Position numbers and translations under genes: made by a program. A stretch of 64,000 nt of DNA from Spiractinospora alimapuensis (GTDB lineage Bacteria > Actinomycetota > Actinomycetes > Streptosporangiales > Streptosporangiaceae): the NCBI RefSeq assembly GCF_018437505.1, contig NZ_CP072467.1:3286001-3350000 (forward strand), in the 5' to 3' direction. Each line of letters starts with the position of its first letter. Positions within the stretch are counted from its first letter, which is position 1. Shown in pieces: positions 10,841 to 14,794 of the stretch. The notes under the pieces were generated by a model. It was not told where the DNA came from and ran no database searches. It saw only the letters and a program-made list of their open reading frames with translations.

Positions 10841-12626
<1,786 letters not shown>

Positions 12627-12772: not shown

Positions 12773-12821
12773 CGATCCCCTGGGGCGTCGACCCACGCGT
12801 GGTGGGAACCCCAGGGGATCG
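12773..12821 (-). terminator. Terminator of the thrC-cysO operon
   Basis: A perfect 13-bp inverted repeat, CGATCCCCTGGGG (12773-12785) and CCCCAGGGGATCG (12809-12821). The 23-nt loop can form an inner stem. It starts 34 bp beyond the cysO-like stop and isolates the operon from the groEL promoter. Confidence 0.8.
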
Positions 12822-12854: not shown

Positions 12855-13133
12855 TCAGCCCCCGGCGACGGCGGGGACGACGGACACCCGGCTGCCGGCG
12901 GGGGTCGCGGTCTCCACCCCTGAGGCGAAGCGCACGTCCTCGTCGCCGACGTAGACGTTCACGAAGCGCCGGATCTTGCCGGAGTCGTCGAGGATCCGCG
13001 CCGAGATCCCGGGATAGTTGGTCTCGAGGTCGGTCAGCACCTCGCGCAGGGTCGCACCGGACGCGGTTACCTCGGACTCACCACTGGTGTAGGTCCGCAG
13101 GATGGTGGGGACCCGAACGTTCACGCCGCTCAT
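12855..13133 (-). CDS. cysO: CysO-like sulfur-carrier protein (ThiS/MoaD fold)
   Basis: A 92-residue ubiquitin-fold protein closely resembling Mycobacterium CysO: VRVPTILRTYTSGESEV at the start, LETNYPGISARILDD in the middle, RFVNVYVGDEDVRF, and an exact C-terminal VVPAVAGG. The terminal Gly-Gly is the site that is adenylated and converted to a thiocarboxylate by MoeZ-type enzymes. In mycobacteria CysO pairs with CysM and the protease Mec. Here neither is adjacent; instead the gene follows a thrC-like PLP-enzyme gene by 65 bp, in an operon controlled by a SAM riboswitch. The partner assignment is an inference. Confidence 0.9.
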   Translation of the reverse strand: MSGVNVRVPTILRTYTSGESEVTASGATLREVLTDLETNYPGISARILDDSGKIRRFVNVYVGDEDVRFASGVETATPAGSRVSVVPAVAGG

Positions 13134-13198
13134 CGCTTCGTTACTCTCCTCGCTCGCAGCATCTGACTTTTGTTGACCGGTGTGTACCGGCGCGCCCG

Positions 13199-14467
13199 CT
13201 AGTGCGCCAGGCCCGCGTCCCGGAACGCCTCGAGGGACGGAGCGATGGTGGCGGACACCCCCGCGGTCGCCGCGTTGAGGGTCTTCAGCCCGTCACCGGT
13301 GTTGAGGACGACGGTTTCCTTGTTCGGGTCCAGCTTTCCCTCGGCGAGCAGACGTCGCAGCACGCCGGTGGTCACGCCCCCGGCGGTCTCGGCGAAGATG
13401 CCCTCGGTCCGGGCGAGGAGCGAGATCGAGTCGACGATCTCCTCGTCGGACACGTGGGACACGCACCCCCCACTGCGTCGGGCCACGTCCAACACGTAGG
13501 GCCCGTCCGCCGGGTTGCCGATGGCGAGGGACTTGGCGATGGTGTCCGGCTTCACCGGCTGCACCACGTCGTGCCCCGCCTCCCACGCCTTGGCCACGGG
13601 CGAACACCCGGTGGCCTGGGCCCCGAAGACGGTGTAGGGCGTGTCCTCGACGAGCCCCAGCTCGATGAGCTCGCGGAACCCCTTGTCGATCTTGGTCAGT
13701 TGGGATCCCGACGCGATCGGGATGATGATCTGCTCCGGGAGACGCCAGCCCAACTGCTCGACGATCTCGTAGGCCAGGGTCTTGGACCCCTCCGCGTAGA
13801 AGGGCCGCAGGTTGACGTTGACGAAGCCCCAGTCCTCGCCGGCGGGATCGCCGATGAGCTCGGAGCAGAACCGGTTGACGTCGTCGTAGCTGCCGTCGAT
13901 CGCCACGACACGGCCGCCGTAGACGGCCGCCATGACGACCTTGCCCTCCTCCAGGCCGGCCGGGATGAACACGCAGGAGCGCAGGCCCGCCCGCGCGGCC
14001 GCGGCACCGACGGCGCCCGCGAGGTTGCCGGTGGAGGAGCAGGAGAGGGTGTGGAAGCCGAACGCGCGCGCGGCCTCCACCGCCATCGCCACCACACGGT
14101 CCTTGAAGGAGTGGGTGGGGTTGGCGGAGTCGTCCTTGACGTGCAGGGAACGCAGGCCCAACTCGGCGGCGAGCCGGTCCGCGCGAACCAGCGGCGTGAA
14201 GCCGGGAGCCATGTTGGGCCGGGAGGCGACGTCGGCCGGAACGGGAAGGAGGGACGCGTACCGCCAGATCGACGGGGGTCCACTCTTGATCGCGTCGATG
14301 GAGACGCCGGAGAAGTCATAGGCCACTTCGAGTGGCCCGAAACACTGCTCACACGCGAAACGCGGCCCAATCTCGTAACGCTCGCCGCACTCACGACACG
14401 AGAGAGCGGAGGCGGGTCCGAAGGGACGGGTGACGGTCGTGTGCGATTCGGTGGCGGTGATCGCCAT
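13199..14467 (-). CDS. thrC: Threonine synthase-family PLP enzyme (possible homocysteine-forming role)
   Basis: A 422-residue fold-type II PLP enzyme. An N-terminal zinc-ribbon-like segment has Cys24-x2-Cys27 and Cys39-x2-Cys42. The PLP lysine is Lys122 in HSFKDR, the phosphate-binding loop is SSTGNLAGAVG, and late motifs include TGDGLKT. By family it would convert O-phosphohomoserine to threonine. Context is unusual: it shares an operon with a CysO-like sulfur carrier, and its leader is a SAM-I riboswitch, which normally governs sulfur amino acid genes. A sulfhydrylation reaction giving homocysteine is therefore possible but unproven. The ATG lies 9 nt after GAGGGGAG. Confidence 0.88.
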   Translation of the reverse strand: MAITATESHTTVTRPFGPASALSCRECGERYEIGPRFACEQCFGPLEVAYDFSGVSIDAIKSGPPSIWRYASLLPVPADVASRPNMAPGFTPLVRADRLAAELGLRSLHVKDDSANPTHSFKDRVVAMAVEAARAFGFHTLSCSSTGNLAGAVGAAAARAGLRSCVFIPAGLEEGKVVMAAVYGGRVVAIDGSYDDVNRFCSELIGDPAGEDWGFVNVNLRPFYAEGSKTLAYEIVEQLGWRLPEQIIIPIASGSQLTKIDKGFRELIELGLVEDTPYTVFGAQATGCSPVAKAWEAGHDVVQPVKPDTIAKSLAIGNPADGPYVLDVARRSGGCVSHVSDEEIVDSISLLARTEGIFAETAGGVTTGVLRRLLAEGKLDPNKETVVLNTGDGLKTLNAATAGVSATIAPSLEAFRDAGLAH

Positions 14468-14481
14468 GCGAGGCAGCTCCC

Positions 14482-14618
14482 CTCATCTTCCCCGTGGCCA
14501 CCTTGACCACAGGCCGGAGTTGGCACCTGCCTCGGCCGCGTCCGCGTCATCGCGAACCTGTCAGCCAAGATGGTTGCCGGGGCTTCGTCGGGCCGGTCCC
14601 TCCACCCCTCTGGATGAG
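14482..14618 (-). promoter_or_regulatory. SAM-I (S-box) riboswitch upstream of thrC
   Basis: On the minus strand the leader has all S-box landmarks in order. P1 is CTCATC (14618-14613) paired with GATGAG (14487-14482). Then come CAGAG, the AGGGACCGGCCC and GAAGCCCCGGCAACC core (about 14602-14572), the GGTGCCAA block (14527-14520), and a P4 hairpin GTGG/CCAC. The Shine-Dalgarno GAGGGGAG (14484-14477) begins inside the 3' strand of P1. SAM binding should therefore hide the ribosome site, giving translational repression. Confidence 0.92.
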
Positions 14619-14794
14619 CACTATTCGGTTGTTATTTCTCCACACCTTAGCTGACGGGGCTGTAGCGTCACCAAAGTGGGGTACGCAGGACCATGAAACG
14701 GCACGACACGCAACCCGTGCACCCGTTGTCCCGTCATGCCGGGATAGCCTCGATTGACAAGACTTAGGCCGATGCGTGAGAGGTGGTCGCACAC

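Follow-up and report, generated by a model that had tools for sequence, protein, structure and literature searches.

In the CysO/CysM/Mec system of Mycobacterium tuberculosis, the thiocarboxylate of a carrier protein feeds a fold-type II PLP enzyme that acts on a phospho-amino acid. A carrier-protein thiocarboxylate route is also said to have been described in Wolinella succinogenes by Krishnamoorthy and Begley in 2011, with a MetY-type enzyme acting on O-acetylhomoserine. In Streptomyces, the work of Hasebe and colleagues in Applied and Environmental Microbiology in 2024 reportedly established the thiocarboxylate of MetO as the sulfur donor and found wide conservation in this genus. The identification of the homocysteine synthase MetM in Streptomyces is credited to that study (Hasebe et al., 2024; doi 10.1128/aem.01247-24) in a citing article (PMC12172450), according to which a SAM riboswitch precedes metM of S. 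albulus, metO is a sulfur-carrier-type gene and the system has a methionine phenotype. The same article describes a cyanobacterial (Microcystis) homologue that shares 51.6% identity with MetM of S. albulus; it has threonine synthase and deaminase activity, makes threonine in vitro and has no clear MetM role in vivo (PMC12172450).

The window, the whole 64 kb stretch of DNA analysed here, in all likelihood contains a metM-metO operon under SAM-I control, in which MetM would make homocysteine from O-phosphohomoserine and MetO-COSH. This assignment draws on the anatomy of the locus, the riboswitch, orthology, synteny and the gene complement of the genome, and takes the reaction from the Streptomyces work; we infer the MoeZ activator and the translational mode of control. 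An earlier sequence-only reading of this DNA had arrived at the same mechanism, which is supported. The novelty that it implied is not, because this enzyme pair, together with its riboswitch, had already been described from Streptomyces in 2024, according to PMC12172450; the window presents a related bacterium's case of a system already known.

The operon and its leader

The features of the operon are collected in Table 1. Both the complete S-box aptamer and the Gly-Gly-ended carrier that had been noticed before and after the threonine-synthase-like gene are borne out by profile searches.

Table 1. Coordinates of the operon features within the window
Feature	Position	Strand	Basis
SAM-I (S-box) riboswitch aptamer	14480..14620	(-)	RF00162, 76.3 bits, E 3.8e-16, complete model 1-108
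Shine-Dalgarno region GATGAGGGGA	14478..14487	(-)	GATGAG, on its 5' side, pairs with CTCATC as the 3' strand of helix P1
metM, threonine-synthase-like PLP enzyme, 422 aa, N-terminal four-cysteine ribbon	13199..14467	(-)	PALP fold, TIGR00260, Streptomyces MetM orthology
metO, CysO/ThiS/SAMP-type sulfur carrier, 92 aa, C-terminal Gly-Gly	12855..13133	(-)	ThiS, 49.9 bits
Terminator-like hairpin closing the operon	12773..12821	(-)	Inverted repeat and folding energy

The aptamer has the conserved core and P1, exceeds the gathering score of RF00162 (44.4 bits) across the full model, and ends 12 nt from the metM ATG. It is the sole Rfam match within the window, and no other SAM-I riboswitch was found in the genome of 5.86 Mb. 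Folded by itself, the leader has a minimum-energy structure (z -1.4) that does not show the aptamer, so the call rests on the covariance-model match. Since the 3' strand of P1 forms the 5' part of the Shine-Dalgarno region, the ribosome site should be partly covered once SAM is bound. The P1 pairing is perfect, lies close 5' of the start codon and is kept in nearly all relatives in which P1 was located; its 3' strand leads straight into GGGGA or GGAGA, shortly 5' of the start in most relatives. In genomes of the same family only 10-16 nt separate the aptamer from the start, too little to hold a terminator. This, together with the position of P1 over the Shine-Dalgarno bases, points to a translational mode of control. 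When P1 is imposed in the model, the Shine-Dalgarno region becomes less accessible; this is partly by construction, as the model forces some of its bases to pair, and it serves as illustration and not as proof.

MetM is a fold-type II PLP enzyme (PALP fold, 221 bits). It scores 271 bits with the TIGR00260 thrC model, above the cut-off, so that NCBIfam scores it as a threonine synthase, and its nearest structures, whether compared by sequence or by predicted fold (mean pLDDT 87), are solved threonine synthases. These matches favour an ordinary second threonine synthase that sits by chance in a sulfur regulon next to a CysO-like gene, as does the threonine made in vitro by the Microcystis homologue (PMC12172450). 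We nevertheless judge this explanation very improbable. The family-level ThrC model is satisfied by MetM, but the active-site motifs and the hom/thrB context of ThrC are not found: the PLP lysine motif SFKDR is retained, identity to the genome's own ThrC is only ~32%, and the motifs differ (HSFKDRVV/GSFKDRGM, ASGSQ/GNAGN and ETAGG/ELASA in MetM/ThrC). A carrier gene adjoins metM, and the S. albulus orthologue has been characterised as a homocysteine synthase (PMC12172450), which also weigh against a second ThrC.

The four ribbon cysteines (C24, C27, C39 and C42) are invariant in 27 aligned sequences. MetM is 25% identical to CysM and is not its orthologue, the true CysM being encoded elsewhere in the genome. 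Homologues with the same gene order in many named Streptomyces species are 71-77% identical to MetM (a set without the S. albulus sequence), and matches in Nocardiopsis and Streptomonospora are 81-83% identical. The window thus very probably carries a Nocardiopsaceae-type orthologue of the MetM/MetO system, and MetM is very probably a homocysteine synthase that uses O-phosphohomoserine, a function predicted from orthology and context.

metO begins 65 nt past the metM stop; the nearest solved chain to its product is 3dwg_C, and the C-terminus reads ...VVPAVAGG. It adjoins metM in 127 of the 135 loci examined. Two of the other eight are contig ends, and six belong to class-level genomes (L097, L098, L099, L103, L109 and L113), where SAM-I and metM are followed by a cold-shock gene, groEL or another gene. 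The C-terminus of MetO is extended in ~49/127 loci, ending in GGC (as PAVAGGC) in 38, GGQ in 5, and others including GGA and GGAR (e.g. L031, L040, L045 and L051). Tails beyond Gly-Gly predict that a protease trims the carrier before it is activated. CysO of the window genome ends in GGMR, and a third CysO/SAMP1-like carrier, ending in SVAGG, is encoded at L020:5468-5755 (genome C1:3821470), next to a gene whose function is unclear.

The operon was also expected to be closed by a terminator. A strong terminator-like hairpin (-39.6 kcal/mol, z -4.0) is indeed present, in which a perfect 13-bp inverted repeat (12773-12785/12809-12821) encloses a second stem of 5 bp; TTGTTCT comes directly after it. 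The hairpin is situated just outside the stretch in which the terminator had been placed. A promoter/terminator consensus scan found no minus-strand terminators, and overlooked this hairpin because of its long loop. Downstream of the operon lies groEL, behind a CIRCE-type inverted repeat on the minus strand, TTAGCACTC-N9-GAGTGCTAA, at 12600-12626.

Homocysteine genes in the genome and its relatives

The genome is a single contig scored 96.9% complete. Stretches near its two ends, C1:7414-11580 and 5840218-5844384 (L002, L003), are 99.9% identical on the same strand, which suggests an untrimmed overlap of ~31 kb in a circular chromosome.

A canonical hom-thrC-thrB operon is situated at 2.52 Mb. 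Threonine synthesis can therefore do without the window gene, a further point against a second ThrC. MetX was not found in the genome: the best match there, from the PRK07581 subfamily, reaches 144 bits, whereas genuine MetX of relatives scores 346-449. Neither MetA nor PF01837 (HcyBio, the DUF39-type homocysteine gene) was found there. The MetX-like match at C1:2928680 was rejected as MetX, belonging to the PRK07581 subfamily with a GWSM motif. The sequence-only reading had set a count of such homologues beforehand as one of its tests, and the count agrees with it: ThrC is present a second time in canonical form, with hom and thrB, and the genome does not combine a sole thrC with a complete metX/metY pathway. 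That no other complete homocysteine route was found in the genome speaks likewise against threonine synthesis as the role of MetM.

Two full-length PF01053 enzymes are encoded in the genome, one of the MetB/cystathionine gamma-lyase type and one orphan. If homocysteine came mainly from either of them, acting on O-phosphohomoserine or on an acylhomoserine made by an acyltransferase that escaped recognition, MetM would be accessory, and the presence of MetX alongside MetM in 34/109 relatives would fit such a role. We find this hardly credible, as MetX and MetA were not found in the genome, the MetB gene lies near that of cystathionine beta-synthase, which is what reverse transsulfuration would lead one to expect, and the orphan reaches none of the cut-offs of the listed NCBIfam models. 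The two enzymes may still provide a minor route to homocysteine beside MetM. Apart from the window operon, the genome has a set made up of CysM, CysO and a JAB-domain protein; MoeZ with a rhodanese domain is present as a single copy (737 bits), and a MetE-family gene is present.

We surveyed 120 genomes, our own included, and found the MetM enzyme in 109. A survey of relatives for S-box leaders had been proposed from the window, and its outcome is clear: SAM-I stands directly upstream of metM in 106/106 uncut copies, the other three being broken by contig ends, and 106 of the 118 SAM-I sites in these genomes stand at metM. The arrangement of riboswitch and enzyme is more than chance, which argues against a threonine synthase placed there incidentally. 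Sixteen leaders with a variant core escaped an S-box regular expression; Rfam recovered the riboswitch in seven (the genomes with G handles), and the remaining nine are named Streptomyces/Kitasatospora loci scored by the regular expression alone. Other SAM-I riboswitches in relatives lie 7-9 nt 5' of GNAT acetyltransferase genes (L125:705-1355, L128:1331-2020 and L126:1351-1908), genes that a SAM riboswitch does not usually control.

MetX occurs in 8/11 genomes without MetM, vs the 34/109 with it, a difference that is only suggestive as the Fisher test (p 0.016) ignores phylogeny. In the same family, MetM is present in 73/73 genomes and MetX in 21, contrary to an accessory MetM. The points that we count against the metM-metO explanation are the threonine-synthase matches of MetM in the family models and the fold search, the Microcystis homologue, the six loci without an adjacent metO, the presence of MetB and the orphan PF01053 enzyme, and the 96.9% completeness.

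Proposed pathway and comparison with described systems

In the proposed pathway, the E1-like MoeZ would activate the C-terminal Gly-Gly of MetO and turn MetO into a thiocarboxylate. O-Phosphohomoserine would be supplied by Hom and ThrB of the threonine pathway; MetM would remove the phosphate and put in the sulfur of MetO-COSH. Once released from the carrier, the product would be homocysteine, which MetE would methylate to methionine. At high SAM, binding to the aptamer would form P1 over the first Shine-Dalgarno bases, whereupon metM, and probably metO as well, would be translated less. The reaction itself, as proposed for the window beforehand, matches that of S. albulus MetM/MetO in PMC12172450 and fits the genome context, and would hold here by orthology.

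A broader scheme is offered tentatively, as we think it somewhat less probable than its converse: the lineage would enter homocysteine synthesis de novo through MetM/MetO alone, the one translational SAM-I switch of this operon would be all the SAM-I control that the genome has, and in relatives with a GGC, GGQ or GGA MetO the JAB protease from the CysO pathway would first have to trim the carrier, which would couple the sulfur supply of cysteine to that of methionine.

A gene that current family models name threonine synthase is very probably a homocysteine synthase across whole actinomycete families, so that automatic calls of methionine auxotrophy in those families are likely wrong. The all-but-universal SAM-I linkage provides an annotation rule, by which SAM-I, a ThrC-like gene and a CysO-like gene together denote MetM/MetO. 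Credit for the discovery belongs to the 2024 Streptomyces work; set beside the account in the citing article (PMC12172450), the present analysis contributes the counts of riboswitch linkage, the overlap of P1 with the Shine-Dalgarno region, the patchy MetX and the MetO tails.

The locus shares with S. albulus MetM/MetO the ThrC-like enzyme, the adjacent CysO-like carrier, the upstream SAM riboswitch and the role in methionine synthesis, whereas it comes from another actinomycete family (Nocardiopsaceae-type) and is known here from sequence. With ThrC itself, MetM has in common the fold, the SFKDR motif and the presumed substrate O-phosphohomoserine, and it differs in its altered active-site motifs, its SAM-I control and its carrier partner. 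The M. tuberculosis system likewise combines a carrier-thiocarboxylate sulfur donor with a fold-type II PLP enzyme and a phospho-amino acid substrate; however, its product is cysteine, from O-phosphoserine, and the window genome has its own separate cysM-cysO-JAB set. The route of Wolinella succinogenes reportedly also leads to homocysteine by way of a carrier-protein thiocarboxylate, its partner enzyme being MetY-type whereas that of the window is ThrC-like.
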